From Macrocystis pyrifera (taxonomy: Eukaryota; Sar; Phaeophyceae; Laminariales; Laminariaceae), in assembly GCA_031763025.1 (NCBI GenBank), contig JASSKH010000016.1, positions 5,938,054 to 6,002,053 on the forward strand: 64,000 bases of DNA, given 5' to 3'. This document shows, one piece after another, positions 6,665-58,829 of this stretch. The notes under the pieces were generated by a model. The model saw nothing but the letters and a program-made list of their open reading frames with translations, ran no database searches and had not been told where the DNA came from. A program made the position numbers and the translations under genes. The first letter of the stretch is position 1. Each line of letters starts with the position of its first letter.

Positions 6665-7334
6665 TTTGACTTTCCAACTCTGTAGACCAGCCGTGGCTTC
6701 CCTTTCACGCAGGGTTCCTCATTCCCACTGCTCGTCGATTCTCAACGAATTTGCAAACTCGAGCTCTTGCGCTTTTCGCGATGACCAAGGTGCCTAAAGG
6801 GATATTGACCCCGACCTCACACGAGTGTTCTTCTGTTGACAGCAGTTTTCTAGGGTCAACAGCTTAACCCGGAGGGACCGTATACGAAGACGTGCAATGA
6901 GAGCAAAACGAGGTACATCAAACCAAATCAAGTCAAGTAAGCTAAATAAATAAATAAACGAGAAAATGATAAATAAAGAAGCATTTCCACGGGCCCGCGT
7001 GATTGGGGGTGATAAAATGTGGTGCCTGAGTCACAGTGCAAGGGGTCGTACAATACGGCCGCTGGGCGCTCACGTTGCTCGTACTGCTGTATGCAGGCGA
7101 TTGATACACTAATCGAGATAATTGTTTTGGTCGCTTTCTCTGGTGTCTCCTGATCTCCAGCGCGTACCTAGTGCGAAAGGGCGACCCCGGGTGGTAAAGG
7201 CCTCGTGGGGGGGGTGGGGGTGCTGTCCGCTCCTATTGACATCTGAGTGTGCGTATTATGTGGCTGCCCGCTGTCATATTATAGAAGAAGAGTGCACCGG
7301 GCATACCTGTACCTATATATGATACCAGGTATAT
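6665..7334. other. No recognisable gene
   Basis: Includes an AAATAAATAAATAAAC run near 6944-6962 and a TACCAGGTA palindrome at 7323-7331. No coding or RNA feature is supported. Confidence 0.5.
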
Positions 7335-29083: not shown

Positions 29084-30520
29084 CTATCCCTCACTCCAAA
29101 TATTCATGACAATGCCCCTGTGGAATTCAAACGCCTCCCTGGTTAGTGCCTTTGTGAGAAAATCGGCATGCTGATACGCCGACGGCACATGAATCACCTT
29201 GATCTCGTCCCTCTCCATCAACTCCCTAATAAAGTGGTGGCGCACATCAATATGCTTCGAGTTCGAGTTGGTGAAAGGGTCGCTAGCAAGAGAAATAGTC
29301 CCCTCATTATCCTCAAAAACCGGAATTAACGGCATGCCAGCATCCGGCAGAAAGAAACGCCAAACCTCCCTGAGGAACAACGCTTCCTTCACTACATCGG
29401 CCAACGCGACATATTCTGCCTCTATGGTTGAGGTCGTCACACACTTTCGAGTCCTAGACAACCAAGCAAGAGGTCCACCGCAACACATCACAACACCTCC
29501 GCTCACACTGCGGCGATCCGCGGCCTTACTCGCATAGTCAGCATCCGCAAACGACTGCATACTCAACCCCATTGCACTCCCCTTCTCAAACGAAATCCCC
29601 AACGAACTCGTTCTCCTCACATATCCCAAAACATCTCGCGCTGCTTCCCAATGCCTAAGCTTCGGGTGGGCACAGTACCTCGCTATCGCACGCACTGCAT
29701 TTGCTATGTCTGGCCTCGTCATCGTCGCTAGCCACATCAGCGATCCAATCAGTTCACGAAAAGGCTCACACACATCCTCCTCATCAACATCAAACTCTCC
29801 AAGTCTCAGTCCAACTCCAATACCAAGCGGCACACTCTTTCCCCACTCAATATTATACTCCTCCGCTAGCTCCAACGCGTAGCTCTCCTGGGAAATAGTC
29901 AAACGTCCGGACTCCCAATCTCTCTCATAAAAACAACCCGAATACCACCTGAGCGGGCCCAAGTCGTTAACAAGCACCATCTCCCCCAGATCCCTGCAAA
30001 ACTGTTCATATCTCTCCTTCTTACCGACAGAAAAGACGTCGTCTACGTGCACTACCAATGTCAGAACGACAATACCATCCACAATCAGTCTAATAACACA
30101 AGCATCAGCCAAACACTGCTCACATCCTAAAAGTAACAAACACCTCTTCAGGTGCGCATGCCACTACCTAGAAGCTTGCTTCAAGCCGTAAAGACTCTTA
30201 GCCAGCTTCACTACCAAGCCAGACATCATACTACATCCCTTCGGCAGTCGCATGTAAACAACAATCCCGGCTTCCAACCTTGAGTTCACAAAAGCTTGCT
30301 CCATGTCCAAATGTTATATATCAAGTTCCTGCTCGCAAGCGAAAGCGGCCAACAAACGCACACACGACACCGCAACAGTGGGAGCGAAAACCTCTCCAAA
30401 GTCTATATACTGCGTCTGCTGATCCCCCCTAGCTACCAACCTTGCCTTGACTTTCGTCGGCCAACCGTATTGATCACGCTTCCAGTCATACACCCACTGA
30501 GCATCTATCCATTTCTCGAT
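29084..30520 (-). mobile_element. Copia reverse transcriptase and RNase H region (fossil)
   Basis: Clear Ty1/copia signatures: HVDDVFSVG for the YVDD-type active site, LIGSLMWLATMTRPDIANAV, SFADADYASKAADRRSVSG, STIEAEYVALADVVKEALFL, VFEDNEGTISLA and KHIDVRHHFIRE. The RNase H domain follows the RT as usual. The 5' part of the RT (29.9-30.5 kb) is less well preserved. Confidence 0.92.
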
Positions 30521-30534
30521 TAATTGCTAGTTGG

Positions 30535-31758
30535 CTACGGTAAAGGTCCCGGCGCTAAGCAGTCCGTGAAACTCAATGCACATGGCGTCCTCGAAGAGGT
30601 GCCGATACTGGTAGCGCGGGGAGGTCGCCTCGGCGAAGGTCTTCGGCACTCATAGGTCGCTGCCGTGGCACAGCACAGTTCCGGACGGTCGTGAGGGGGG
30701 CGCTGCTCCATGATGGCGATTTCGATGTCCTCCCGACGCGCAAAGTGAGTCACAAGGGCGACCGGTACGCTCCCCCCCTGCTGCTCCCCCTGACCCGGCA
30801 TCCCTCCTCCGGGCTCCGCGTGAAGCGTGTTGACCAGGTCCTGCGTGGCAAGAGCCGACAGCAGAACATCCCTTCCCGAGAGGGACAGAAGACCGTGGTT
30901 GTGGCGGGTGACATCACCGCCTCCTCGCGTCCCCCCTGATCTGGTACGTCTGGCGATGCGGACGTCGGCCATACCTCCCGTGCGATCCGGCCGAAGTTCG
31001 GTGATCGCCCTACGGGAAAGAGGCGGCATCGCCGACGCAGGACGCGATAGCGGTGTTTCCTCCGGTGGCGGCCCACCCGCAGACGGCCCGGCGGCCCCAG
31101 GCAACGGCGCGAGCGGTTGCGGAGGCGCGGGCGACGGCGATGTGAGCAGCGGCGTCGCAAGCGGCAGCCCCGTCCCAGACAACCGAGACTGTGGGGACGA
31201 GAGAAGCGGCGGCGTTGCAGGGGTAGATGTCGGCTGTGGGGGCGGGAGAAGCGGCGAAGGCGCAGGGGTAGATGGCGTAGATGATGGCGGCAGGGGCTGC
31301 TGCGTGGCGGGAATCCGAACTCCTCCCCCCTTCCCGGCTGACGCGGCAGGCCCAGAAAACCAAAAAGGGTGGCGGCGCGCCCGTGGCCGGGCCCGAGGCT
31401 GAACAGTCGGCGGCGGCGGCGGCGGCGGCGGGGCAGTGGCCAGCGGCGTTGGCGGCGAAGCGGCAGACCTGGAAATCCACACGATGTCCCTGGTGTGGCA
31501 CACCTGGCCGGTGGAAGCCTTGAGCACCCGCACCGTGGAACGGCCGTGTTCGTAGCCGTGGCCGAGGAAGTAGCACGTGGCGGACTGGTCGTCCAACTTG
31601 GTCTTTCGCATAACGCGCATCATCCCCGGCTGGAAAAACGGCAGGACGATGGCGTCGGGCTTCATGCCCGTGAAGGCCTCGTACGGGGAGATGTTGCCGG
31701 GGTTGGCCTTGGCGCTGCAGCGGTTGAGGCACCCCGCGATGTACCGCACCGACTCCAT
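30535..31758 (-). mobile_element. Copia integrase C-terminal region and linker (fossil)
   Basis: Starts with YIAGCLNRCSAKANPGNISP and YEAFTGMKPDAIVLPFFQPG, the conserved PYE..TG..P block after the copia integrase core, then GHGYEHGRSTVRVL and HTRDIVW. A long Pro/Ser/Thr-rich low-complexity linker leads to the reverse transcriptase. Confidence 0.85.
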
Positions 31759-31780
31759 CTACAAGCCGTCCCCGCGAGGG

Positions 31781-33696
31781 TCAAGACCAGGGATAACGGA
31801 AAAATCGGGGATGCCGAGCTATTCCGCCGCGCTGCGACGGCACACGGTACCCCCCTTCATCAAGCGCCAGATAGCGCTCTCGACGGGCGCGTTCTGCTGC
31901 GGCGTGTCGGGGGTGGTGAACTCGAGGCGAATGCCAGCGTCGGCGCAGAAGGCACGAAACTCCGCGTTGGTCCACTCGGTGCCCATGTCGACGCGAAAGC
32001 ACTCGATGTTGGCACGGCGGTACTTGGAGAGGTCGGTGATGGCCACCTTCACTCCAGCAAGGGCATCGGACTTGCTCCGAAGCCCGTAGACCAGGACGAA
32101 CCGCGAATAGCTGTCCAAGACCACCAGCAAGTACATGCTGCCACCGATGGACGCGGTGACCTTGCCGCAGAGGTCCAGGTGGAACGTGACCCCCGGCTCT
32201 CGCGCCCTTCCACCAGTCCGCGGTACACCAGCCTTTCGCCCCTTGATCATCACGCACGACTCGCACGTCTCCAGTGTGCCGGTGAGCTGGTGCCCCTGTT
32301 GCTTAGCGGTTTCTCTCAGCAAAAAATCGCATAAGTGGCCGGTGCAGCGGTGGTAAAAGTTGATGTCAAACGTTTTGGTCGGGGAACAAGCCATAAAGGG
32401 GTGATTCTTGGGTGCAATCGCCGCAAGCGCACCACACAAAACACCACACAAAACAGCACCGCCTTCCACACTGAAAAGGTCATTGTCAAATGCTTGCACC
32501 AAAAACGCAGCCTCCACATCGGAAATAAAAGAGGGGCCTACAGCACGGAGATCCTTTCCGTGAGTACCGTCCATCTCTGAGTCGTTCATAAGCACGGCCA
32601 CCACATTTAACACCAACTCCAATCCGTCAAGGGTCCGGGGGGCCTGGAAAATCAAACCTGAAGGCGAAGTCACGACGCCTGAATCGGCGGGCGGGAAGCT
32701 ACCAGTCGAAGGTACCACGCCTGCAAGGGCGGACGGAAAGCAACCCTCGGACGCCCCGCAAAACGGTTCATCGGGAGGGGTAGACCATGGCACTACATCG
32801 TCGTCATCGATGGGCGGGAAACACATGTCGCCAGGTACTACACCAGCGTGGCCAGCGGTGGAAAGAGAACTCTCAAGATCAAACGAATCAGGGGGGAAAT
32901 CTGACCCAGGGAGAAGTCCTACAAAAGCCGGCAAAGCAGTCTTAATCCCACACACACTCACACGCGTCGCAAACAAAGATGACCCAGATTGGCTGCGAGG
33001 GAAGGTCAAACCAAGGGGGGGCAGGTGCACACCTTTCACATCAATCGTAATAGGCATGTGCGCGGAGAGTTCATGGAGCGAAAGAAGGTTAAAATTCAAT
33101 CCCTCAACCGCTGACACGTTCGGCAAAAGCACTCTAACATCTTCTCGTACACCGGCAGCATTCCATTGATGAAAGTCAAAAATCAAACTTCCACGCGCGG
33201 CAGCACGAAGCATTTGGCCACTACCAACCTGTACATATCTCTGATTAATAGGAATGTCGTTGCTGCGGAGAGTGTCAAACATATGCGCGTCACCATTGAT
33301 GTAGGTACCACTATCACCGGAATCCGTAAGCACCTCCTCGCTACCATGCGGCTGGCATAAGCCCAAGTTGTTGGCCTGTGCCAAAAACGCATTCCCGACT
33401 TCGTCATTTTCTACGTCACTCTCATTCCCGTCATTCAAACCATTATCAACACCAGGCACACCGAACTCGCCTACTGGCACAAAGTGCATGACGAGGGCGT
33501 GCAGTCCAGACGGCGCGGGATCCGATCCAGGAGAAGAGTAAGCAGCAGAAGGGGGCGCGGGGCTGCCGGTGTAGTGGACCATTTCCTGCTGGTGGGGCTG
33601 TTGGGGCTGATGTTGAAGCTGGGGCGGGGGCAGCTGCTGCTGCTGTTGCTGCTGCGTTCCGACGACGGCGGTGGCAATATTTCCATTGCTCACCAT
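31781..33696 (-). mobile_element. Copia protease and integrase core region (fossil)
   Basis: An Asp protease-like motif (VLTDSGDSGTYINGD) is followed by a gag-pre-integrase domain with zinc-binding His/Cys (FYHRCTGH and CESCVM). The integrase catalytic core follows: FHLDLCGK, FRVDMGTEW and PQQNAPVESAI supply the D, D and E positions. The protease cuts the polyprotein and the integrase inserts cDNA. The order identifies Ty1/copia as opposed to Ty3. Confidence 0.9.
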
Positions 33697-33888
33697 GGCT
33701 GGATCGGGGGTGTAGGGCCCTGCGCCTCCGTGTTACCCCAGGACCCGCCGGTGCCGCCGTACTCGTACTGATGCTGCTGATAGTAGGTGTTTCTGTACTC
33801 GTCGTACAGGAGCGGGGGGGAAATTTCTTGCGCGATGTATGCGCGGGCGTTCTGCGTGCGTGGCTGGTTTTGACTAGGGTTGTGACCA

Positions 33889-39562: not shown

Positions 39563-39988
39563 TAGAGCCTGGTATCACCTAAAAATCGGGGGGGTACATG
39601 ACATCTATATATACCCCCCTAAAAAACATGACTAAGTCATAAAAGTTGATATTTCTTAGTCATGTCCATATCACGGGCATTTTCTGATACATTGCTATGA
39701 TATTTGATATATGCAGGGTATATGATAATACCATGTCATCTATCGTGTGATATATCATATATATATTGTAATATCGTATATATAACGTTATACAAGGCTT
39801 TCCTTCGGAGTGGGTATTCCGTCGTTTCGTGTTCATATAACTGCAATTAATTGGCGACATAGCCCAAAGCCAACCAAAGTAAATGTATTTGTGTAAAAAA
39901 AACGGTGAAGGATGTAATGATAGCGTTTATTTATGAATGTAATGTGAAACGTAAGATCGGGTGACGCAAGAGTAAGAATGACATATGT

Positions 39989-40507
39989 CTAATAATAATA
40001 AGAATAACATATTTCATCAGTGTGGGGAGAGAGTGAGCAGTGCTTGGCATGTGGATGATATACAACATACATGCTGTTGTTTAAAAGAAGGTTTGGGACA
40101 GGAGAGAAAGCAGCAGTGCCGGCAACGACAACGGTTATGGAAATGTTGTATAGTTGCTGGGCGGCCGCGATTTCGATGTAGCCAGCATAGGAGTTTGGAT
40201 GAGACATGATATATACATGTAAATAGTCTTCCAGGATGCTGTAGTAACGAGGCGGGAGGCCCAGAATGTGGATCTGTTCGCTGTTGAACCCGTTGGATAT
40301 GTGTAGGAAGAAATAATCGTGATTCTGGGAAATGTGGGAAACAATTTGTTTCCTTTCGTTCGTCCTAGATGGCGACAATCTGCTTGGTGTACTGCTTCGG
40401 AATTCCGCGAAGCCCTGGAGCAGGCGAAATGGAAGGGAGTATTTTTGCGCTTGATGATGATGTCTCCGTCTTTGATGGTGGAGTCCGTCAGGCGGCAGTT
40501 GTAGCAC
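39989..40507 (-). CDS. OTU-like C-terminal block, OTU-unit copy 1
   Basis: The protein-like part reads ERKQIVSHISQNHDYFFLHI, RYYSILEDYLHVYIMSHP, NSYAGYIEIAAAQQLYNISI and YVVYHPHAKHC. The order (Y..Y....., GYIEI.A....Y.I.I.V, and a late His followed by a small residue) resembles the second half of OTU cysteine proteases, which remove ubiquitin. The catalytic Cys block (DGxCLF) is not visible. The assignment is therefore tentative. The last residues differ from copy 2 because of a one-base length difference near 40033. Confidence 0.35.
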   Translation of the reverse strand: MLQLPPDGLHHQRRRHHHQAQKYSLPFRLLQGFAEFRSSTPSRLSPSRTNERKQIVSHISQNHDYFFLHISNGFNSEQIHILGLPPRYYSILEDYLHVYIMSHPNSYAGYIEIAAAQQLYNISITVVVAGTAAFSPVPNLLLNNSMYVVYHPHAKHCSLSPHTDEICYSYYY

Positions 40508-40515
40508 TTGCCACG
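40421..40515 (-). CDS. Cysteine finger C-x2-C-x21-H-x2-C, OTU-unit copy 1
   Basis: The minus frame reads RGKCYNCRLTDSTIKDGD and then IIIKRKNTPFHFACS. Spacing C-x2-C-x21-H-x2-C is that of a LIM-type or short PARP-type zinc site. The I-K-D-G core matches the I-K-E-G of the 43.1-kb finger, so the protein probably has related fingers. It overlaps the beginning of the OTU-like frame. Whether an intron or frameshift joins them is not clear. Confidence 0.4.
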
Positions 40516-40597
40516 GACCTGGTCGAAGTAAACATATAGGGTGCGCGGGGCGGGAGTGGCGTGCAGGGAATGGCGGGGGAGGGGGAAAGGGGGGGGG

Positions 40598-40615
40598 GGG
40601 GGGGCAGTGTTCATT
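40598..40615 (+). repeat. Poly-G tract in OTU unit (partner near 50637-50657)
   Basis: A run of about 16-18 G follows GGGGGAGGGGGAAA in copy 1, and a longer run lies at the same place in copy 2. Length varies between the copies, as slippage predicts. Confidence 0.8.
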
Positions 40616-40986
40616 ATTTGTACTACTCTACAGCGGCACAACAGCAGCACGTAATCGCTTGCTATACGACGGCAGCAGCAGCAGCAGAAGCAGCAAGTAC
40701 GTAATTTCATTGACGATACAGAAATATGTAGACACACAAGTGTAGTACGGTAGTACACACACAAATCACGTCCAGCATGATGTACGGCAACAACGCAGCA
40801 GCACCACAAAAAAATCATTGACGACACAGAAATATGTACACACGCACAAGTTTAGGTGTAATAGACACACAAATCATGTCCAGCATGATGTACGGCAACA
40901 ACGCAGCAGCGCCACAAAACGACCAGGAAACACAATTATCCGAGTACATACAAACATTCAGTGAATATTGCGGCAGCACTAAAAGC

Positions 40987-41028
<42 letters not shown>

Positions 41029-41375
41029 GCAACGGATCGCCACAGCGTTGGCAGCAGCAGCATAGCAACGATATGAAAAGAAGGGAGAAAAAAAGTATGT
41101 ACCCCGAGGCCGTCCGAAAAGTATTTTTGGTACCTCACTATAGACCCACCTCCGCATGCTGTACGGCAACAACGCAGCAGCAGCATAGCAACAATACGAA
41201 ATACGAGAAAAAGTAGTATGTACGCAAAATGCAGGAGCAAAACGACCCAAATATTTTTTTTATGTATCAAAAAAACCATTTGGGTAGAAAAATGGCCAAT
41301 AAAAACAATAATCCGCGTTGGCAGCAGCAGCATAGCAACGATATGAAGATAAGGAAGAAAAAATGCATGTACCTG

Positions 41376-41673
41376 CTCAGGTCGTTACTCTACAGTCAGT
41401 GGTTCATCCGTTATCGTGGATATTGACTCTTGTACTAAAAGTGGCCGCAGATCTCCGTAGATCTGATGATAGTTGAGGCGGGGAATTACCAGCCTCCATC
41501 ACCAAGTAATTGCTGATGACTGTCATGTGAGATGACTTGCGTCATGCTTCATGATCACTTCTGCTCGGCTGACCGTGCCGAGCCTCACCTATACCTGGCG
41601 TGTCCTCCACGCTACACCTTACCGAAAGAGAAGCTTGCTGCAGACCCAGGTCGAACCTGAGATACACCCATCT
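41376..41673 (-). repeat. 309-bp element P, copy 1 (inside OTU unit)
   Basis: Reverse-complement copy of the elements at 45530 and 47728, slightly trimmed at both ends. It lies between the 5' exons and the OTU-like block, so it would be intronic. It is present at the same position in unit copy 2, so it inserted before the unit duplicated. Confidence 0.85.
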
Positions 41674-41899
41674 AGCATATGCCGCAATCGCAAAACCTAC
41701 GGAATTTCATTGACAATACCGAAATATGTACACACACAAGTGCAGCATGATGTACGGCAACAACGCAGCAGCACCACAGCAGCAGCATAGCAACGATATA
41801 TATGAAAATAACCAAGCCAAAAACGAGAAATTGCAGTACGTACGCAAAATGCAGGAGCAAAACGACAAAAAAAAAAAATCACGTATCAAAAGGAACCAT

Positions 41900-42211
41900 C
41901 TGTCAAGATCAATTTCGTGAGTTCGACTCTCACCGAGTGCATGCTCATAGGGACTTTTTCTTGCATAAAAAATTGATAAGCGGAAAGCGCGAAAGCGTGA
42001 GTTGGCTACATTCGATGAAAATCGACGAGCAGTGGGAATGCTGAACCCTATGCGCGATAAAAACTAAAGGCACGTACCGGGGGGGAGAAGGGACGACACC
42101 TGTGACCACGGCTTGTCCAGAAGATCGTCGAGGGTAAAAAACCTCCTACGAGTGGGCTGGAAAGTAAAAGTGATGATAAAAAAAAAAAAAAAAAAAACAA
42201 AACAAAACAAA
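41900..42211 (+). mobile_element. tRNA-derived SINE insertion with A-rich tail
   Basis: 312 bp present here and absent from the matching site in unit copy 2 (near 51943). It begins CTGTCAAGATCAATTTCGTG, holds a box-B-like AGTTCGACTCTCAC, and ends in about 18 A followed by CAAAACAAAACAAA. The tail and box B fit a 5'-truncated tRNA-derived SINE mobilised by a LINE. No clear target duplication is visible. A second copy of its 5' part starts at about 63962. Confidence 0.75.
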
Positions 42212-42295
42212 TTGAGTACAAAAACGACCAAGAAAGACAGTAATCCGAGTACATACGTACGAACATTCAGTGGATATTGCGACAGCATTAGCAGC

Positions 42296-42379
42296 AGCAG
42301 CAGCAGAAGCAGCCACAGCATTAGCAGCAGCAGAAGCTGCAACGAATCGCCGCAGCGTTGGCAGCAGCAGCAGCAGCGT

Positions 42380-42421
<42 letters not shown>
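42296..42421 (+). repeat. CAG repeat cluster in OTU unit
   Basis: Runs of CAG, including about 15 consecutive units near 42377-42420, lie in what would be an intron (CTG on the transcript). The equivalent in copy 2 (52024-52151) has a shorter pure run broken by AAAG. Another CAG run at 40988-41025 is also longer than its partner at 51047-51071. Confidence 0.85.
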
Positions 42422-42423
<2 letters not shown>

Positions 42424-42814
42424 CAAGGATATGAAAGTAAGGAAGGACAAAAGCATGTACCCTGGTATGCCACCATCGCAAAACCTACGGAATTGACGAT
42501 CCGAAAATATGTACGCTTCCAGCATGATGCACGCGGAACAACGCAGCAGCACTACATACAGCAGCAGCAATTGCACAGGAGCAGCAAGTGCACAGCACGG
42601 CAACAACGTATCAGCACTACAGCAGCAGCGAGTGCACAGGAGAAGCAGGTGCACAGCAGCAGCAGCACTCACGGCGTGGCGCTGACAGCAGCAGAAGCAG
42701 CAGCGGCAGCCGAAAACGAGCAAAAAATGAGTACGTGGGGTCACCAAAAAAACATGTACACACAGAAATCGTGTGCATGCACCGAAAATGCACCACAGTA
42801 GCAGCAGCACTCAC

Positions 42815-42900
42815 GTCGTTCGGTGCAGCGGTGACGGCGACAGCTGAATCCTCCGTTCCTTCGTTCACGTCCCGCAAACAGTTGTGCATGTGCGCGTTCG
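42815..42900 (-). CDS. Putative short internal exon, OTU-unit copy 1
   Basis: The minus strand reads HNCLRDVNEGTEDSAVAVTA then APND and stops at a consensus donor (GAC then GTGAGT). A plausible acceptor (CACACAG) lies near 42910. The acidic, non-repetitive composition contrasts with the CTG-rich sequence downstream, which would be intron. The same block is conserved in copy 2 near 52547-52632. Confidence 0.3.
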
Positions 42901-43019
42901 CGTGCACTGTGTGTAAGAGGAGCCGACGAAATAAATAAACGCTTCGACGTAGGATTGTATGCAAAAAGGCAATTGAAAACCCCCAAAAAACGCACTGGCA
43001 ACATACAGCATGCACAATA

Positions 43020-43400
43020 GACATAAGACACTCACCACTGTCAGCAGTCTCGAGGGAGTACGAGACAGTCCCTTCCTTGATCGGGCGAGCACAGAACTCG
43101 CAGTCGGATGCCCTGTCAGGATGATCCCGCCACCACGCACATGAGATCCTTGCTGGTGGCGAAGGCCACGTTTTGGCCACCAGGCGCGGAGTTCTTGACC
43201 AAGTAAGTGCTGGTCCGTGCTGGTCGCAAACAACAGCCGGCACCAGGTCGGTCTTTGTCGTTGCCGCTCTCTTGCCAGAGGGCGAGGACCACGCGCCTCT
43301 CGACGAGGGGGAGGTGTGCTTAGGGGGCGTGGAGAAGGGAGAGGCGGGGGTTGCAGCACCAGCAGGTTCGCCACCGACAGCAGCAGCTTGGCCGCCGACA
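43020..43400 (-). CDS. Putative 5' exon with a C-x2-C finger, OTU-unit copy 1
   Basis: One minus frame ends DCEFCARPIKEGTVSYSLET and runs into ADSG at a good splice donor (G then GTGAGT, intron starting at 43035). Upstream, another frame reads GGQAAAVGGEPAGAATPASP and then VPAVVCDQC, suggesting an earlier exon in that frame with a low-complexity, possibly nuclear, N terminus. The CxxC...IKEG pattern resembles a second finger near 40.5 kb. Exon limits are inferred and the function is unknown. Confidence 0.35.
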
Positions 43401-43970
43401 GCTGCACCTATCTATGCCGTTCGTCGAAGGCGAGACGCCTCTTTTTTTAGGCGCCGTGCGAAGAGCTATTGGTTGGCAGTTTGCGGAGGAAGAAAGAAGA
43501 AAAGGTTGTTTGGCTGTTTGGCGAAGAAGAAAGAAGAAAGGTTGTTTGGCTGTTCGGCTGTTTCAAAGAAGAAGGGCTGTTTGCGAAGAGCTGTCTATCA
43601 GTCGGTCTGTCTGCCAAGAGCTAGCAAGTGACAACGACCTCAAAAATCGTAATTATAGTTGTATTTATATCATGTACCTTGTATATTGTGCTATGCCACT
43701 TTGTATCTGCCCTATATATATTATCGTGATTTCGTGTGCTATTATCACCTATAATATCTGTACGTCACCGCCGTGTCACATCGGTACCTAAATCTTGCTC
43801 GTGGTTGGGGCCTGTGCCACACTGATAGATGGTAAGGCACTGGCTCGGTATTTGGTGATCTGTGCCGGCTACCAGGTACGTACTACAAAGCACACCAAAA
43901 GCATGAATGATGATACAGCAACCCTTTCTCCGCGAGGATATATTGCATGTAGATGTGTGGCGGCATTTAT

Positions 43971-45529
43971 TATCATGATTCAGTTGAACTCACAGCTGAC
44001 GTATTTCAAAATTTATAAAATCTGCACGTCATTCGTTTTCGCCGGAGGAATGGAACGGAGGTTGTTGGAGAGTATGAATTCGACCGAGTGTTGTGAGTTC
44101 GATAAGAAAAACCGACCAATCACATCGGAGAATACCATACAGGTGGCCGTACATGCCCAGACTGTCTGCTGCTGCTGCAAGGTCTGATCTCTGGAGGCAT
44201 TGAACTACAAGTACTCCTACCGCAGCAGCACAGTATTAATAGTAGTTAGTAGTAGTAGTCTGGTAGTTCAGAGAGGCATTCTACTTCCAATATGTACATA
44301 CAAAGGTTTGTTTTCGCCGGTCGAATTTGATTGAACGTTGTTGGAAAGTAGGACCTATAGTACACTGTAGTAGTATTAATTCGGCCGAGTGTTGTGAGTT
44401 CGATAAGAAAAACCGACCAATCGCATCGGACAGTCGGAGGATATCAAACGGGGTCGTACATGCTCGGACTGTCTACTGCTGCAAGGTCTAATCTCTCGAG
44501 GCGCATTGAGATACGAGTACTACAGCAGCAGCAGCAGTACGGTAGCTCAGGGGTGTTCTACTTGGAAGATGTACAAAGCTAAAATTAAATATCCATAACA
44601 AGCGCGCCCGATGAGCGTGTCTGACGTATCACGTAATCACGCCGCTTCCAAAGTTGAGTTTCAAGCACTCAATCGGTGGTACTCACAGCAGACGGTTTTC
44701 ACTTTGAAAAAATCATACCTGGTATATATCCAGCAGCCAGGTAGGTGTCCATTATTAGTAGTATATTAACATCTACTAAAGAAATTTAAGGTTCGAACTA
44801 CAGCAGCAGTCCCGTTTTAAGATACGGTCCTTCGTACCAGGTACCGGTATACTGTAAGATAAGATATTCGCCTTAACATTTTTTTGGTGAAAACACGTCA
44901 AGTTATTTCGGCGAGAGCACTACTGGAGGTAGTCGAGGGTTCGAGACTGCTTGCTTCCACTGCGAGTCTTCGCAGTATCTCGGGTTCTGTGGTGTTGTGG
45001 ATATTGTGCTGCGTGTGCTTCGGTATTTCCGACCTGAATAATTCGGGGTTCACACGGAGAATTCTGCCCATGTTAGCAGTGTACTTTGCGTTTGTCGGGT
45101 TGTTTGCGGTTGTCTGCATTGCCGATCGATATCAGGTACTAGGTACCTGGTATGTATCAGGTGTTTGATACTGCTCATACTCGCGGCATCTCGGAATATA
45201 TACTGCGATTATACTGCCTGTAGTCGTACGAAGTATCATGGAGTATTTCATACCAGTGTAGATAATGCGCTTATGTATGTATACTGGTTGGTACAAATAC
45301 ACGTGACGCGTCCTGTACTCGCGGTAATTTGGGCGGATACTGCAAGCTGACATGTTGTCTGCTGCTGCTGCTTCGGTAGTGCTGCTGCAGCAGCAGCAGC
45401 AGCATATATCTCTAGGATTGAAGAATCGGCACGGACACTGGTTGTTGTGCTGGATGTCGACGGGCAGAAAGAACTTGAAGAAAACAACAAGAAACACAAC
45501 AACAAACAGAACAGACCTACGTACGAACG
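43971..45529. repeat. Non-coding region with a ~274-bp tandem duplication
   Basis: Blocks at 44033-44307 and 44308-44580 share GTTTTCGCCGG, CGAGTGTTGTGAGTTCGATA, AGAAAAACCGACCAATC, GACTGTCT and CTGCAAGGTCT. Three TACCWGGTA palindromes follow (44716, 44835, 45144). From 44950 to 45340 the ACTCGCAGTATCTCGG-type words of 36-37 kb reappear. A CAGCAGCAG run lies near 45386. No gene is recognised. Confidence 0.6.
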
Positions 45530-45838
45530 TGTGAGATGGGTGTATCTCAGGTTCGACCTGGGTCTGCAGCAAGCTTCTCTTTCGGTAAGGTGTAGCGTGG
45601 AGGACACGCCAGGTATAGGTGAGGCTCGGCACGGTCAGCCGAGCAGAAGTGATCATGAAGCATGACGCAAGTCATCTCACATGACAGTCATCAGCAATTA
45701 CTTGGTGATGGAGGCTGGTAATTCCCCGCCTCAACTATCATCAGATCTACGGAGATCTGCGGCCACTTTTAGTACAAGAGTCAATATCCACGATAACGGA
45801 TGAACCACTGACTGTAGAGTAATGACCTGAGACTCACA
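45530..45838 (+). repeat. 309-bp element P, copy 2
   Basis: Begins TGTGAGATGGGTGTATCTCA and ends GACCTGAGACTCACA. The ends are imperfect inverted repeats (TGTGAG and CTCAGGT near both termini). It is almost identical to 47728-48036, and inverted relatives are at 41376 and 51425. It is probably a non-autonomous transposon. No protein and no convincing target duplication. Confidence 0.85.
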
Positions 45839-46129
45839 TCGCCCCCCAATGTTTGAACGCCTCTTACTGGAGAACCCAGCAAAGGTTTCGAACATTCTAG
45901 AAGGAACGGTTTCTAGGTTCTCTACTAGTCAGAAATTTGTACAATGAGTGGTAGTTGATGTATATGATTCAACTGGTTCATTTTCAAACCATGTCACTCC
46001 CAGCGTAGTGAAAACCACGGGCTTGTGTGACTATGATAAAAATTTACTACAGAATCAGTCATATACTAACGATGTATCAACTACCAGTGGCGGTGCGTAT
46101 ATTAAATTAATATGCGCATCCAGAACCTT
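45839..46129. other. No recognised gene
   Basis: Short AT-leaning interval between element P and the palindromic satellite. It contains an inverted repeat-like TTCTAGAAGGAACGGTTTCTAGG near 45890-45920. Nothing else is supported. Confidence 0.4.
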
Positions 46130-47005
46130 TTATAACAATGGTATACGGAACCATGTATACTATGGTGTACGGAACCATGTATACTTGCTATGGTATACGG
46201 AACCATGTATACTATGGTATACGGAACCATGTATACTTACTGTGGTATACGGAACCATGTATACTATGGTGTACGGAACCATGTATACTTACTATGGCAT
46301 ACGGAACCATGTATACTATGGTATACGGAACCATGTATACTTACTGTGGTATACGGAACCATGTATACTATGGTGTACGGAACCATGTATACTTACTATG
46401 GCATACGGAACCATGTATACTATGGTGTACGGAACCATGTATACTTACTGTGGTATACGGAACCATGTATACTATGGTGTACGGAACCATGTATACTTAC
46501 TATGGCATACGGAACCATGTATACTATGGTGTACGGAACCATGTATACTTAATGATGGTATACGAAACCATGTATACTATGGTGCACGGAACCATGTATA
46601 CTTAAGGATGGTATAAAAAACCATGTATACTATGGTGTACGGAACCATGTATACTTGAAATGGTATACGAAACCATTCATGATATGGTATACGAAACCAT
46701 TCATACCATGGTATACTTACCCATGTATATGTGTTATGGTATACGGAACCATTTGTACGTAGTGATGATATACGAACTCAATCATTCTATGGATGTATGT
46801 TATATGGTGTACGAAACCATGAAAACATAATGATGGTATATACGGAACCATCTATACAATGGTATACGAAACCATGTATCTGAACGATTGATGGTATACA
46901 AAACCATGGTATATTAATCTTGCATCACTAACAATGGTATACAAAACCATTCATACCTAACGATGGTATAGTGCCTTTTTAATGGTATACGAAACCATTC
47001 ATATC
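46130..47005 (+). repeat. Palindrome-rich satellite, ~25-bp unit
   Basis: ATGGTATACGGAACCATG and ATGGTGTACGGAACCATG followed by TATACT or TATACTTACT repeat about 18 times without gaps to about 46620, then decay to 47005 with unit spacing widening. ATGGT and ACCAT flank each core, so every unit can form a hairpin. A 51-53-bp dimer is visible. The 222-codon frame is a repeat translation. Confidence 0.95.
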
Positions 47006-47727
47006 GAACAATGATATGTGCCTTTGACGACATTCCAGCTTTTCTCGACGTTGCACAGTGTGTATATGGAACGATTGCTTGCAAGCTTTGGTACACACAA
47101 ACTGAAGAGAAATAAATGTGCTGAATGACAATTTTGTCAGAGGGCTTTGCATGCAGGGTGCGCAACAAACGATACGAACGTTTAGGTTGATCAACCAATT
47201 TTTTTAAACGATTAAAAAAAATAAACAATAAAATCTGCATGTCTTGACAACGGTGTGGTTGTGACAACAATGGTGCAGTATAACGGACTGCAGGTGCATG
47301 GTGAACGATACGACGACAACATGTCTCCTCAGTCAGACAAGGCATCATCGACTTTTTGGGCAAGTACATGTTTGCGATTCAGTGAAAACACTGGAATCGA
47401 CTTATATCGAGTTGATAGTACGAACTATCTATACAGTTGACGATCTGTACAAGAGACATTCTTGCAGTCATTGACGATTGACTGCAGACAGTGTACTCAT
47501 AAATATGTAGTAAAACAAGCGGGGACTCATAATGTGCCCGAGGATATATGACTTTGGATTGTGCAGGTCACGCGCACTGCTGCCTCTCCTCAGTCAATTC
47601 CAACGGAACGATTCCGACACTAGAGAATACATTCTCGATGTATCCAGGAATCTCTAGTGTCTCGCACAGAGAGACGGATGGAAAGCACACTGTGTCTCTT
47701 CCACCAAAAATGAAAGCAGGACGCCAA
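47006..47727. other. No recognised gene
   Basis: Contains degenerate GTATAC words near its start and a short plus frame near 47548-47793 that is not convincing. No RNA gene seen. Confidence 0.4.
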
Positions 47728-48036
47728 TGTGAGATGGGTGTATCTCAGGTTCGACCTGGGTCTGCAGCAAGCTTCTCTTTCGGTAAGGTGTAGCGTGGAG
47801 GACACGCCAGGTATAGGTGAGGCTCGGCACGGTCAGCCGAGCAGAAGTGATCATGAAGCATGACGCAAGTCATCTCACATGACAGTCATCAGCAATTACT
47901 TGGTGATGGAGGCTGGTAATTCCCCGCCTCAACTATCATCAGATCTACGGAGATCTGCGGCCACTTTTAGTACAAGAGTCAATATCCACGATAACGGATG
48001 AACCACTGACTGTAGAGTAATGACCTGAGACTCACA
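47728..48036 (+). repeat. 309-bp element P, copy 3
   Basis: Same length, ends and orientation as 45530-45838, with near-identical sequence. It lies 2.2 kb from that copy. Confidence 0.88.
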
Positions 48037-48106
48037 AACGACATAATTAATAATGTTCTGCGGGCAAAAGGGGATGTCTGAACTGCTCCACTGAATATAA
48101 TAAGAG

Positions 48107-48345
48107 CTACGCACCGAGTAAGCAAGACCGAGGGGGTCGAACTGGCCGACGGCGGCCCGCAAATCAAGGGAGTCGGGAGAAAAAAGCGGTAGCGTCAGCA
48201 GGCCGAGAATCGAACCTCGGAGAGAAAAGAGTTAAGATCAAGTCTGCCTCTCTTTACCTAGCAACAACAGCGAAACAAATCTCCAGGACCGCGAAAAATA
48301 GAACCTCCATGTCTCCTCGCCAAAGCAAGTATCCTTCGAGTTCGG
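48107..48345 (-). repeat. SINE-like repeat S1, reverse copy with T-arm hairpin
   Basis: Reverse complement of about 38400-38640, including GCCGAGAATCGAACCTCGG (T-arm hairpin) and GATCAAGTCTGCCTCTC. It is interrupted after GGGGCCGCCGTG by a GTGTGTGTG run, beyond which unrelated sequence follows until 48585. Confidence 0.65.
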
Positions 48346-48584
48346 GGCCGCCGTGTGTGTGTGTGTTCTTCACATTAAACCGTTCTTCTACTCGTCGACA
48401 TCCAGCAAGCCCAGTGTCCGTGCTGATTCTTCACCCTAGAAAGATACGAGCTCTGTGGTCACAGACTACGACACAGAGATAACACACCGTAATGCATTAA
48501 TAGCCTACGCAATACCATGCCTTCGCACTAGGTGCGGCCGACACAACATACATACATACGCCAGCAACCAAAATACACCATAAC

Positions 48585-48826
48585 GTGCTCGTCGGTGGCG
48601 TTATACTCCGAGATGCACGCACGGGAGAACACCCGACGGAGCCCGGCGAGCGCGACCCTCGAGGAAAGCGGTCGAAAAAGCACGTACGAAGCCAGGAAAG
48701 CGAAAGCGTCTGGGATCCGAGCCTAAGTTTAAGACGAAATCGGAAGCGAAGGCTTCGCGCAATAGGGAACCAAATTTCCAGGAGGGAAGAACAGAGAAAA
48801 TAGAACGTCCGTGTGTCCTCTCCATT
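48585..48826 (-). repeat. SINE-like repeat S1, reverse copy interrupted by hAT-like R2
   Basis: Reverse complement of the 38250-38400 unit (TACTCCGAGATG, GGAGAACACCCGACGGAGCC, GAGGAAAGCGGTCGAAAAAG). It ends at CTCTCCAT, where hAT-like R2 was inserted, and continues after R2 at 53443 with a second CTCTCCAT and TTCGAGTTCG. Confidence 0.7.
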
Positions 48827-50063
48827 AGAGCCTGGTATCAGTATAGGGCTACTCTATATATACCCCCTATACGATATGATATTTCCGTAGTAGTACTTAG
48901 TCATGTTTTTTTTCACAGGAACGTGCGATATATATCATATCGTATTACATCGCGATATATAGGGGCTTTCAGCACGATGTGACTAAAAGGTGATATGATA
49001 TTTGATATATATATGATATATACGTCCGCTATAAAGGGATATATCGGCCTATATAAGGTGATATAAGATGATATATCGGCCTACATGAGGTGAAATACGT
49101 GATGTAGCCATCCGATATGTGGCATAATATGACCACTTGCTGTCTTGACGATATATATCTTGCATCTTTCGGGCGTGCATTTCGGGCGGAATATATGTGC
49201 AGTATATACCTGGTACGAGTACGAAACGTGTGACGCATACACAATGGGACGTCCCAGGGGTCTGTGCCCGCTGCTGTCTTCTTGTCGTGCGGGTTTGATC
49301 CGCGATGAGCGAGTCGAACGCGCCATCGCCTGCGGCCACAAAAGCGAGCCACAGCTACTACAGCAGTCGCCTTCGACATCGTCAAGCGCCGCCACACATC
49401 TACATCCAATATACCCTCGCGGAGAAGGGGTTGCTGTATCATCATTCATGCATTTGGTGTGCCGGGTAGTACGTAGTGGGCACAGATCGCCAAGTACCGA
49501 GCCAGTGCTTTACCATCAGTATGGCACAGCCCCCAACCACGGTGACGTACCTACATATGTGATAATAATAGCACACGAAAGCACGATCGTTTATAGGGCA
49601 GATATGAAGTGAAGTATAACGATACACAAGGTACATGATATATATATACCTGGTATGATATTGCACAATATGTATGATATATCACACGATATATGACATG
49701 GTATCAGCATATATATACCCTTCATATATCAAATATCATAGCGATATATCGAAAAGTGCCCATGATATGGACATGACTAAGAAATATCAACTTTTATGGC
49801 TTAGTCGTGTTTTTTTGGGGGGGGTATATATAGATATCATACAAGGCTTTCCTTCGGAGTGGGTATTCCGTCGTTTCGTGTACATATAACTGCAATTAAT
49901 TGGCGACATAGCCCAAAGCCAACCAAACTAAATGTATTTGTGTAAGAAACGGTGAAGGATGTAATGATAGCGTTTATTTATGAATGTATTGTGAAACGTA
50001 AGATCGGGTGACGCAAGAGTAAGAATGACATTCGTCTAATAATAATAAGAATAACATATTTCA

Positions 50064-50555
50064 TCAGTGTGGGGAGAGAGTGGAGCAGTGCTTGGCATGT
50101 GGATGATATACAACATACAGGCTGTTGTTTAAAGGAAGGTTTGTGACAGGAGAGAAAGCAGCAGTGCCGGCAACGACAACGGTTATGGAAATGTTGTATA
50201 GTTGCTGGGCGGCCGCGATTTCGATGTAGCCAGCATAGGAGTTTGGATGAGACATGATATATACATGTAAATAGTCTTCCAGGATGCTGTAGTAACGAGG
50301 CGGGAGGCCCAGAATGTGGATCTGTTCGCTGTTGAACCCGTTGGATATGTGTAGGAAGAAATAATCGTGATTTTGGGAAATGTGGGAAACAATTTGTTTC
50401 CTTTCGTTCGTCCTAGATGGCGACAATCTGCTTGGTGTACTGCTTCGGAATTCCGCGAAGCCCTGGAGCAGGCGAAATGGAAGGGAGTCTTTTTGCGCTT
50501 GATGATGGTGTCTCCGTCTTTGATGGTGGAGTCCGTCAGGCGGCAGTTGTAGCAC
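50064..50555 (-). CDS. Finger plus OTU-like block, OTU-unit copy 2
   Basis: Same OTU-like reading as copy 1 (YAGYIEIAAAQQLYNISITV and YVVYHPHAKHCSTLSPH). Here the C terminus ends soon after HCSTL, which better matches the late HYxSL-like motif of OTU proteases and suggests this copy has the original end. The C-x2-C-x21-H-x2-C finger lies at about 50469-50560 in an overlapping frame. The catalytic Cys was not found. Confidence 0.35.
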   Translation of the reverse strand: MLQLPPDGLHHQRRRHHHQAQKDSLPFRLLQGFAEFRSSTPSRLSPSRTNERKQIVSHISQNHDYFFLHISNGFNSEQIHILGLPPRYYSILEDYLHVYIMSHPNSYAGYIEIAAAQQLYNISITVVVAGTAAFSPVTNLPLNNSLYVVYHPHAKHCSTLSPH

Positions 50556-51041
50556 TTGCCACGGACCTGGTCGAAGTAAACATATAGGGTGCGCGGGGCG
50601 GGAGTGGCGTGCAGGGAATGGCGGGGGAGGGGGAAGGGGGGGGGGGGGGGGGGGGGGCGGAGTTCATTATTTGTACTACTCTACAGCGGCACAACAGCAG
50701 CACGTAATCGCTTGCTATACGACGGCAGCAGCAGCAGCAGAAGCAGCAAGTACGTAATTTCATTGACGATACAGAAATATGTAGACACACAAGTGTAGTA
50801 CAGTAGTACACACACACAAATCACGTCCAGCATGATGTACGGCAACAACGCAGCAGCACCACAAAAAAATCATTGACGACACAGAAATATGTACACACGC
50901 ACAAGTTTAAGTGTAATAGACACACAAATCATGTCCAGCATGATGTACGGCAACAACGCAGCAGCGCCACAAAACGACCAGGAAACACAATTGTCCGAGT
51001 ACATACAAACATCCAGTGAATATTGCGGCAGCACTAAAAGC

Positions 51042-51077
<36 letters not shown>

Positions 51078-51424
51078 GCAACGGATCGCCACAGCGTTGG
51101 CAGCAGCAGCGTAGCAACGACATGAAAAGAAGGGAGAAAAAAAGTATGTACCCCGAGGCCGTCCGAAAAGTATTTTGGTACCTCACTATAGACCCACCTC
51201 CGCATGCTGTACGGCAACAACGCAGCAGCAGCATAGCAACAACACGAAATACGAGAAAAAGTAGTATGTACGCAAAATGCAGGAGCAAAACGACCAAAAT
51301 ATATATTTTTTGTATCAAAAAAACCATTTGGGTAGAAAAATGGCCAAAAAAAAACAATAATCCGCGTTGGCAGCAGCAGCTGAGCAACGATATGAAAATA
51401 AGGAAGAAAAAGAGTATGTACCTG

Positions 51425-51726
51425 CTCAGGTCGTTACTCTACAGTCAGTGGTTCATCCGTTATCGTGGATATTGACTCTTGTACTAAAAGTGGCCGCAGA
51501 TCTCCGTAGATCTGACGATAGTTGAGGCGGGGAATTACCAGCCTCCATCACCAAGTAATTGCTGATGACTGTCATGTGAGATGACTTGCGTCATGCTTCA
51601 TGATCACTTCTGCTCGGCTGACCGTGCCGAGCCTCACCTATACCTGGCGTGTCCTCCACGCTACACCTTACCGAAAGAGAAGCTTGCTGCAGACCCAGGT
51701 CGAACCTGAGATACACCCATCTCACA
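51425..51726 (-). repeat. 309-bp element P, copy 4 (inside OTU unit)
   Basis: Reverse-complement copy at the position equivalent to 41376-41673. It retains the CTCACA end that copy 1 has lost. Confidence 0.85.
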
Positions 51727-52121
51727 TATGCCGCAATCGCAAAACCTACGGAATTTCATTGACAATACCGAAATATGTACACACACAAGTGCAGCATGAT
51801 GTACGGCAACAACGCAGCAGCACCACAGCAGCAGCATAGCAACGATATATATGAAAATAACCAAGCCAAAAACGAGAAATTGCAGTACGTACGCAAAATG
51901 CAGGAGCAAAACGACAATTTTTTTTTTCACGTATCAAAAGGAACCATTTGAGTACAAAAACGACCAAGAAAGACAGTAATCCGAGTACATACGTACGAAC
52001 ATTCAGTGGATATTGCGGCAGCATTAGCAGCAGCAGCAGCAGAAGCAGTCACAGCATTAGCAGCAACAGAAGCTGCAACGAATCGCCGCAGCGTTGGCAG
52101 CAGCAGCAGCAGTGTTGGCAG

Positions 52122-52155
<34 letters not shown>

Positions 52156-52546
52156 CAACGATATGAAAGTAAGGAAGGAAAAAAGCATGTACCCTGGTAT
52201 GCCGCCATCGCAAAACCTACGGAATTGACGATCCGAAAATATGTACGCTTCCAGCATGATGCACGCGGAACAACGCAGCAGCACTACATACAGCAGCAGC
52301 AATTGCACAGGAGCAGCAAGTGCACAGCACGGCAACAACGCAGCAGCACTACAGCAGCAGCGAGTGCACAGGAGAAGCAGGTGCACAGCAGCAGCAGCAC
52401 TCACGGCGTGGCGCTGACAGCAGCAGCAGCAGCAGCGGCAGCCGAAAACGAGCAAAAAATGAGTACGTGGGGTCACCAAAAAAACATGTACACACAGAAA
52501 TCGTGTGCATGCACCGAAAATGCACCACAGTAGCAGCAGCACTCAC

Positions 52547-52632
52547 GTCGTTCGGTGCAGCGGTGACGGCGACAGCTGAATCCTCCGTTCCTTCGTTCAC
52601 GTCCCGCAAACAGTTGTGCATGTGCGCGTTCG
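52547..52632 (-). CDS. Putative short internal exon, OTU-unit copy 2
   Basis: Same NEGTEDSAVAVTAAPND reading and GTGAGT donor as copy 1. Conservation is expected from the recent duplication and is not independent evidence of coding. Confidence 0.3.
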
Positions 52633-52799
52633 CGTGCACTGTGTGTAAGAGGAGCCGACGAAATAAATAAACGCTTTGACGTAGGATTGTATGCAAAAAG
52701 GCAATTGAAAAACCCAAAAAAACGTACTGGCAACATACAGCATGCACAATAGACGTAAGACACTCACCACTGTCAGCAGTCTCGAGGGAGTACGAGACA

Positions 52800-53170
52800 G
52801 TCCCTTCCTTGATCGGGCGAGCACAGAACTCGCAGTCGGTTGCCCTGTCAGGATGATCCCGCCACCACGCACATGAGATCCTTGCTGGTGGCGAAGGCCA
52901 CGTTTTGGCCACCAGGCGCGGAGTTCTTGACCAAGTAAGTGCTGGTCCGTGCACTGGTCGCAAACAACAGCCGGCACCAGGTCGGTCTTTGTCGTTGCCG
53001 CTCTCTTGCCAGAGGGCGAGGACCACCACGCGCCTCTCGACGAGGGGGAGGTGAGCTTAGGGGGCGTGGAGAAGGGAGAGGCGGGGGTTGCAGCACCAGC
53101 AGGTTCGCCACCGACAGCAGCAGCTTGGCCGCCGACAGCTGCACCTATCTATGCCGTTCGTCGAAGGCGA
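52800..53170 (-). CDS. Putative 5' exon with a C-x2-C finger, OTU-unit copy 2
   Basis: Equivalent of 43020-43400. It reads VPAVVCDQCTDQ in one frame, and in the frame leading to the donor TDCEFCARPIKEGTVSYSL then ETADSG before GTGAGT. Small length differences from copy 1 near 52950 shift the relation between the two frames. Exon limits are inferred. Confidence 0.35.
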
Positions 53171-53442
53171 GACGCCTCTTTTTTTAGGCGCCGTGCGAAG
53201 AGCTGTCTCTTGGTTGGCAGTTTGCGGAGGAAGAAAGAAGAAAAGGTTGTTTGGCTGTTTGGCGAAGAAGAAAGAAGAAAGGTTGTTCGGCTGTTCGGCT
53301 GTTTCAAAGAAGAAGGGCTGTTCGCGAAGAGCTGTCTATCAGTCGGTCTGTCTGCCAAGAGCTAGCAAGTGACAACGACCTCAAAAATCGTAATTATAGT
53401 TGTATCTATACCCCCCCGATTTTTAGGTGATACCAGGCTCTA

Positions 53443-53564
53443 CTCTCCATATAATATTATTCTTCGAGTTCGTGGTCGAAAACGAGACTGTCAGTTTGAA
53501 CCACAAAATCGTTCAGATCCTGAGTACAAGGCTGCTGTTCACGCGTTCATCATGTGTGCCACCC
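53443..53564. repeat. Continuation of S1 after R2, and flank
   Basis: CTCTCCAT followed by ATAATATTATTCTTCGAGTTCG matches the S1 phrase AAGTATCCTTCGAGTTCGGGG, so R2 interrupted this copy. The remainder is unassigned. Confidence 0.5.
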
Positions 53565-58150: not shown

Positions 58151-58208
58151 TGTCAGGTGTGTGTGTTTGTTTGTCTTGTTCTTTCTACCCGTCGACATCC
58201 AGCACAAC

Positions 58209-58317
58209 TATTACGGGGATCCATAGTTAATAGGACCTATGGTATACATCAAAACCTATGTAATTACATATTTTTACTAACAATATTTTGTCCTATTTAC
58301 TATGGTCCCCCGTAATA
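58209..58317. mobile_element. 105-bp MITE with TA target duplication
   Basis: TA-TTACGGGGATCCATAGTTAA at the left and, inverted, TTACGGGGGACCATAGTAAA at the right form terminal inverted repeats of about 26 bp, flanked by TA on both sides. Relatives of the host repeat lacking the insert are at about 45434-45470 (reverse) and 48383-48420, where CATCCAGCA leads straight to GTGTCCGTGC. TA duplication suggests the Tc1/mariner group. It encodes nothing. Confidence 0.85.
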
Positions 58318-58829
58318 GTGTCCGTGCCGGTTCTTGAATCCCCGAGAGCCACGATGCGAATACAAGTTCTGTGGTCACAGCAGTGCATATTTTTCGTCTG
58401 CAAACTATTATGCCGGATTTCGAGGTGGAAACCAGGATACACACGCCAAAATCCAGTATGTGTTACAGGTGTGTGCGTACTGCTGCAACATGTGTTTTTC
58501 ATATTATATCAAGCAGGAGAGACCAAGAACATTTACGATATTGAGATTCACCAACGACGGCGTATAGATAGGTAGTAGGTAGTAGTAGGTATAATAGTAG
58601 ATGCTCGTTCGTGTTGGTTCAGCACAAAACAGAATAATCCGTATTCGCCCAGCAGGATGCATCGCAGATATGACTATACTGCAGGTATTACTGAGGTCGC
58701 GCCTCATTACCACCAACTACTAGTAATTTAATACGTGGTCAGCGGTATGAAATTGCTTTACTACTTTTTTTTAGCAGAAAAAGCTGTGCTGGTGGTGTTG
58801 ATCAGCAGCTGGTTGATGATTAGTTTGGG
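58318..58829. other. No recognised gene
   Basis: Holds a diverged relative of the 275-bp repeat (58380-58470) and TAGTAGGTAGTAGTAGG words near 58570. No coding signal. Confidence 0.4.

Follow-up and report, generated by a model that had tools for sequence, protein, structure and literature searches.

A unit of about 3.6 kb lies in two related hAT-like carriers, here called R1 and R2, within a 64,000-nucleotide stretch of the giant kelp Macrocystis pyrifera (assembly GCA_031763025.1, contig JASSKH010000016.1, positions 5,938,054 to 6,002,053; hereafter the window). This unit is very probably a non-autonomous Helitron of this alga, derived with both ends kept from a 10.9-kb Helitron that codes for a Rep-PIF1-OTU protein. 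The assignment follows from the finding that the 10.9-kb element carries both ends of the unit around these coding sequences and that the unit is its internal deletion. A sequence-only reading of the window had noted that the unit holds no obvious transposase, which is true of the unit itself, Rep-PIF1 being present only in the full-length relative, and had suggested a possibly undescribed element type. The second suggestion is not supported in view of the full-length element, in which Helitron Rep, PIF1 and OTU domains are encoded between the same two ends, and the unit is not a new class. An abundant giant-kelp unit (1146 exact left ends in 537 Mb) is in this way assigned to a known mechanism and linked to an enzyme-bearing element, and its exact ends are now given for annotation. 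The coordinates of all features are collected in Table 1.

The full-length element was found on C200. Searching the whole genome with PF14214 (Helitron_like_N) yielded 74 candidates, 63 of which were matches; two of these, on C200 and C209, lie about 3.66 kb inside a listed head-to-tail junction of units, on the strand that an OTU-like relic in the unit predicts. On C200 the element runs from 20358453 down to 20347560, that is 10,894 bases by coordinates (fetched stretch L069 and the adjacent L071). It begins with the left end of the unit, TACAAGGCTTTCC, at position 248 of the reverse complement of L069, and finishes with the right end AATTATAGTTGTATC, to which TATTTATG is joined; this junction falls within a further unit copy, near its position 136. 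The matches of the element to the unit (92-98%) cover unit positions 1-45 and 69-564/565 and are separated by a short inverted patch. Past unit position 564/565 come 5.1 kb that are absent from the unit, after which homology is back at unit position 566, with more divergent matches further in. A stop-free frame of 1439 amino acids (aa) lies mostly within this 5.1-kb block. It matches PF14214, the Helitron Rep (E 7.8e-37, residues 120-277), the PIF1 helicase PF05970 (E 2.8e-57, residues 765-971), a Pif1 2B domain (residues 1074-1115) and, above the cut-off, the OTU domain PF02338 (E 2.4e-6, residues 1279-1406); the motifs HAH, YLYKY, GSGKT and DGACL were recognised by eye. The relic of the R2 unit corresponds to residues 1303-1413 of this frame and is on the same strand relative to the ends, while the R1 version of the relic frame matches PF02338 at E 0.11, below the cut-off. 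Together, these results show that the unit is a full-length Helitron from which about 5.1 kb were deleted and in which both ends were kept.

A PARP-like zinc finger that had been guessed from one frame of the unit found no support, and an overlapping frame is the OTU relic. The predicted fold of a 198-aa frame of R2 was uninformative (mean predicted local distance difference test score 40.9), and a 263-aa frame of R1, probably not coding, had no relatives in viral contigs. Rfam gave nothing at gathering level among its 15 matches up to E 2, two of which fall in the CAG-rich part of the units.

As had been claimed from the letters of the window, the unit sits at different places and in opposite orientation in the two carriers, and arm and unit alignments agree on this point. 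R1 39598-39778 corresponds to R2 49840-49654, inverted, and R1 43662-43964 to R2 49646-49388, inverted, and the first 34 bp of R1, from 39563, are identical to the R2 end. Since the arms match across both points, the insertion point of each carrier is empty in the other, again in agreement with the earlier description. The two unit copies are identical at 3483 of 3549 aligned positions (98.1%), the extra length of the R1 copy coming from a 312-bp insert that follows about 41900, whereas the inverted carrier arms are identical, gaps excluded, at 162/181 and 227/259 positions (~88%). These rates of difference (66/3549 in the unit against 51/440 in the arms; P = 5e-20, Fisher's exact test) indicate that the two unit copies postdate the divergence of the carriers. 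The units of R1 and R2 most likely go back to independent insertions into two old, already diverged members of a single hAT-like carrier family.

In the genome searched (223 contigs, 537,376,219 bases), the 24-mer of the unit left end has 1146 exact occurrences (550 and 596 by strand) and the reversed control 0. The left 362 bp used as a query gave at least 1481 candidates; the 40 that were scored are all 98-100% identical, with alignments beginning at the first or second query position. A query with the right 256 bp also gave at least 1481, and the 40 scored are 97-100% identical. The pattern ATACAA-10-TTGTAT was uninformative (38 in the genome vs 31 in the control, per strand). The unit is thus a dispersed mobile family, found nested in miniature inverted-repeat transposable elements (MITEs) and in hAT-like carriers and also in head-to-tail arrays. 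Its mobility in its own right, proposed in the sequence-only reading, is borne out by precise insertions and by left ends spread over the genome instead of copies in the two loci only. The sharing of the unit by R1 and R2 could also be viewed as a one-off local rearrangement, by template switching or gene conversion between neighbours and not by transposition, given that the two copies are 10 kb apart and that no copy was found in the other 200 kb around the window. The 1146 exact left ends and the flanks, mostly unrelated at the other loci examined, leave this view next to no probability and refute it as a general explanation, though one copy of the pair may still stem from a local transfer.

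Some right ends of the unit occur as same-strand pairs, with spacings of about 18.85 kb on C7 and C187 and of about 19.7 kb on C149, which is perhaps the mark of a duplicated segment. A long terminal repeat (LTR) or direct-repeat reading of the ~18.85-kb pairs was rejected, as the unit ends are not TG...CA.

To define the ends, flanks were read at the 20 best left and 20 best right ends after R2, plus R1 and R2; this set holds the copies most like R2 and is not a random sample. The constant part of the unit is TACAAGG...GTTGTATY (in full letters TACAAGGCTTTCC ... AATTATAGTTGTATY), with Y being C in 16 of the 22 right ends and T in 6. The limits ATACAA...TTGTAT given earlier do name letters that stand at the unit tips, but the true limits are shifted by 1 bp with respect to them. 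To the left of the unit the base is A in 20/22 cases (the exceptions being G in L032 and C in the tandem L039), and to the right it is T in 22/22, followed by A so as to read TA in 21/22. The flanks of the R2 unit, ...GATATCA + TATACCCC..., compared with the empty site of R1, GATGTCATGTACCCC, show two substitutions and no gap. TA-run length differs from the empty carrier at R1 and at C196:6915746, and neither of these defines the junction.

The target site could be defined more closely on a palindromic MITE. Seven of the 20 left flanks are one spot of this MITE, GTAAAAATAGG[G/T]AAA^TATATAGG, in one orientation (L041 loosely), and six right flanks match the MITE, all in the common orientation. 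By rough comparison L027 is also in the MITE in the common orientation, and L033 is just outside a whole MITE. The seven MITE left flanks (71 bases, partly outside the MITE) show a mean difference of 0.26, against 0 in the first 59 bases of the unit. For 4 of the 7 MITE-borne copies the left end could be paired with a right end, and the joined flanks were aligned to empty MITE copies. No gap was found within about 4 bases of the junction in 18/20 (C192), 19/19 (C190) and 19/20 (C200) alignments; for C203, 8/18 were gap-free at the junction, with 9-10 extra bases just beyond it. These gap-free empty sites show that the element is inserted into A^TATA sites between the A and the T, and that no other base is added or removed. 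The same palindromic MITE (TATTACGGGGGACCATAGTAAATAGGACC ... inverted) occurs at 58206-58318 of the window and in L002, L005, L006, L013, L017 and others, with many empty copies, and the Helitron units have landed repeatedly in its TA-rich loop.

The A^TATA sites also invite the reading of the unit as a non-autonomous cut-and-paste element of the terminal inverted repeat (TIR) type with a TA target duplication, like Tc1/mariner. The right TA in 21/22 copies would fit such an element, as would the initial TA of every left end, should it be assigned to the target, the AT-rich targets and one reversed MITE insertion (L043). The tips of the unit share only TACAA, which starts the left end and recurs in inverted form at 2-3 bp from the right one, and this offset pentamer, beyond which there is no terminal inverted repeat, speaks against it; the only end repeats of at least 7 bp found for the unit involve carrier flanks. 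The bias of orientation is likewise unfavourable, with 119 head-to-tail junctions against 0 of the one tail-to-tail form tested, and 7/20 left flanks at one MITE spot one way against 1 reversed. Contradicted in addition by the full-length element, with its Rep-PIF1-OTU protein between the same ends, a Tc1/mariner-like origin appears very improbable.

Head-to-tail arrays are known for Helitrons. The kelp genome contains 119 exact copies of the junction GTTGTATY-TACAAGGCTTTCC (51 and 68 by strand), with 0 for the reversed control. The tail-to-tail form AATTATAGTTGTATYTARATACAACTATAATT occurs 0 times genome-wide, this being one form only, which demands more letters than the head-to-tail pattern. 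Among the first 100 of the 1146 left ends, 12 of 13 pairs of neighbours less than 8 kb apart are on the same strand. The first 100 of the 119 junctions include 20 pairs of neighbours less than 20 kb apart: 16 are on the same strand at 2475 to 4323 bases, three on the same strand at 6914, 7079 and 12940 bases and one on opposite strands at 13020 bases. Most junction spacings are thus of 2.5 to 4.3 kb.

Array interiors were read in four fetched stretches (L065, L066, L067 and L068). L066 holds two units of 3242 and 3672 bases, mutually 80-93% identical in the main aligned pieces, with a single base changed in the left end of the second. The units of L067 and L068 measure 4092 and 2475 bases, and L065 has one unit of 7079 bases; the units of these four stretches are ~80-94% identical to the R2 unit in the main aligned pieces. 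As the sampled members differ in length and in sequence (~6-20%), the arrays unite different family members, and recent duplication of one unit was rejected for the sampled ones, with the L066 pair being only 80-93% identical. In view of these differences in length and sequence, family members seem to be added to an array by inserting at the ends of those already there. The 119 precise junctions bear on the origin of Helitron tandem arrays, for which read-through of one template stands against insertion at the end of another copy; the few sampled arrays, with members unlike in length and sequence, favour the latter. A 2.7-kb insert in L065 was considered as an enzyme block and rejected (longest frame 202 aa); with TGTTCG...ACA ends and a GAGGT repeat, seen by eye, it looks like a separate LTR-type insertion.

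Precise junctions of this kind, with their imperfect TTGTA-TY-TACAA palindrome and the 2-bp overlap at both junctions, are also what a site-specific recombinase with a 2-bp TA core (a serine recombinase or an IS607-like enzyme) would give through directional insertion and array accretion. Of the elements with these ends, the only one read that bears genes is a Helitron, which leaves the recombinase little chance, no genome search having been aimed at recombinase families.

Several points nevertheless weigh against a Helitron origin of the unit as described here. The ends TACAAGG / GTTGTATY are unlike those of a canonical Helitron (Helitron1), with no TC...CTRR on either strand. Hairpins at the ends are not significant (z, strand by strand, -0.70 and -0.97 for the left end and 0.12 and 0.41 for the right end), the two 4-bp stems beside the TACAAGG end having the z of -0.97 on the gene strand. 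Insertion is equally readable as a 2-bp TA duplication (right TA in 21/22), which L032 fits better, and orientation is not fixed, since L043 is in the MITE loop in reverse. Only one element was read end to end at full length: the second candidate, on C209, comes from distance alone, and the 1-kb stretch fetched there holds no end. Beyond the window and the full-length element, copy interiors were read in only four fetched stretches.

With these points taken into account, a Helitron origin of the unit is still by far the best supported, and its history can be put as follows. Loss of ~5.1 kb of coding sequence from the 10.9-kb Helitron produced a unit with both ends; the Rep-helicase of full-length copies presumably moves it in trans, as the shared sequences suggest, and probably through rolling-circle replication. 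As the empty sites and junctions show, the unit enters TA-rich A^TATA sites between the A and the T, and mostly points one way wherever the site lets this be read. Such sites are offered by AT-rich MITE loops, hAT-like carriers and the ends of earlier unit copies. A further proposal, to which we give slightly less than an even chance, is that these Helitrons form a lineage distinguished by termini of its own (TACAAGG...GTTGTATY) and by a narrow A^TATA target. Each insertion would re-create the target at its own ends, and different members would in this way stack one way into precise arrays. If true, this would be a self-targeting, array-building rolling-circle element.

Table 1. Features of the window (positions of the whole 64,000-nucleotide stretch)
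Feature	Position	Strand	Remarks
Unit in R2, very probably a non-autonomous Helitron	49840..53406	- (Helitron gene strand)	3567 b; left end TACAAGGCTTTCC at 49840, right end GTTGTATC at 53399-53406
Copy of the unit in R1	39791..43665	-	3875 b including the 312-bp insert; opposite orientation relative to carrier
Target base A left of R2 unit (A^TATACC)	49839..49839		right flank T at 53407
Deletion scar	50404..50405		homology to full-length element stops at unit 564/565, restarts at 566
OTU-like relic in R2 unit, C-terminal end of Helitron protein	50070..50402	-	90% identical over 111 aa to the 1439-aa frame
OTU relic in R1 unit	40023..40354	-	coordinates carried over through the unit alignment
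Carrier R2, hAT-like	48826..53442		exact 15-bp TIR TAGAGCCTGGTATCA
R2 target duplication CTCTCCAT, left copy	48818..48825		exact 8 bp
R2 target duplication CTCTCCAT, right copy	53443..53450		exact 8 bp
Carrier R1, hAT-like	39563..43964		left TIR at 39563; stretch alignable to R2 ends at 43964
312-bp insert in R1 unit, absent from R2 unit	41901..42212	+	ends in A-rich run; B-box-like GTTCGACTC by eye
~300-bp element nested in R2 unit	51425..51727	-	copy in R1 unit at 41376-41673 (-)

The carriers themselves are hAT-like by their ends. The TIR of hAT elements starts with YARNG, and R2 combines a short TIR with such a start and an 8-bp duplication, both of which had been described as exact and proved to be so. 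The R2 unit adjoins one carrier end, as also described, at 36 bp from the right end. No right TIR of R1 was found, the best 15-mers from 43.6 kb on having 4 mismatches (the end of R2 itself aside). The left end of the R2 unit with its flank (TCATACAAGGCTTTC, 49837-49851) resembles the inverted carrier TIR (53428-53442) at 11/15 positions, a likeness that is probably due to chance.

Other repeats were observed in and around the window. The 312-bp insert of the R1 unit belongs to a repeat resembling short interspersed nuclear elements, of which the surrounding 200 kb contain several copies with 82-94% identity (L006, L007, L009, L010 and L015). The ~300-bp element nested in both units (TGTGAGATGGG...CTGAGACTCACA) is also free-standing at 45530-45838 and 47728-48036; its four copies are 99-100% identical within about 10 kb, and none was found in the 200 kb around. 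Short tandem repeats of the motif GGTATACGGAACCATGTATAC, decaying rightwards, occupy 46107-47002. On the minus strand, long frames at 29084-33732 have by eye the look of a Copia-type polyprotein (integrase and RNase H-like stretches), and 22240-25144 holds repeats of a 1124-bp unit, namely two copies whose 268-aa frames look the same by eye and part of a third.

Compared with the Helitron superfamily, the kelp family is alike in the HUH and two-tyrosine Rep (HAH, YLYKY) fused to PIF1, which is found in the full-length relative and not in the unit, and in the A/T insertion site without target duplication (A in 20/22, T in 22/22). Like known non-autonomous Helitrons, the unit has ends in common with a Rep-PIF1 element, no transposase was found in it and it forms head-to-tail arrays; unlike them, it strongly prefers A^TATATA, and its sampled arrays mix lengths and sequences. 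In another brown alga, Ectocarpus, 13 Helitron families were counted, and nested insertions fixed among copies are reported for giant DNA transposons (PMC12477816); the Helitron section of that paper gives no terminal sequences, so the ends are not comparable. Our literature search, outside of which most subscription papers fall, found nothing on stramenopile OTU transposons or on kelp short interspersed or non-autonomous transposons. According to PMC5148889, canonical Helitrons have 5'-TC and CTRR-3' ends and a 3' hairpin and insert between A and T, Helitron2 and Helentrons have asymmetric inverted repeats, hairpins and T-rich targets (TT or TTTT^T/C), and Helentrons carry an endonuclease and often an OTU domain in the Rep-Hel protein. 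No Helentron-type endonuclease is among the Pfam matches of the two L069 frames scanned. Relative to these descriptions, the kelp family resembles Helitron2 and Helentrons in its non-canonical ends and its OTU domain, and is unlike them in its A^T target (mostly A^TATA), which is not TT or TTTT^T/C, and apparently also in its ends, in which no significant hairpins and only a 5-bp offset inverted repeat were found. By the descriptions in PMC5148889, the kelp family joins a Rep-PIF1 core, an A^T target and an OTU domain to termini that appear to belong to neither described set.

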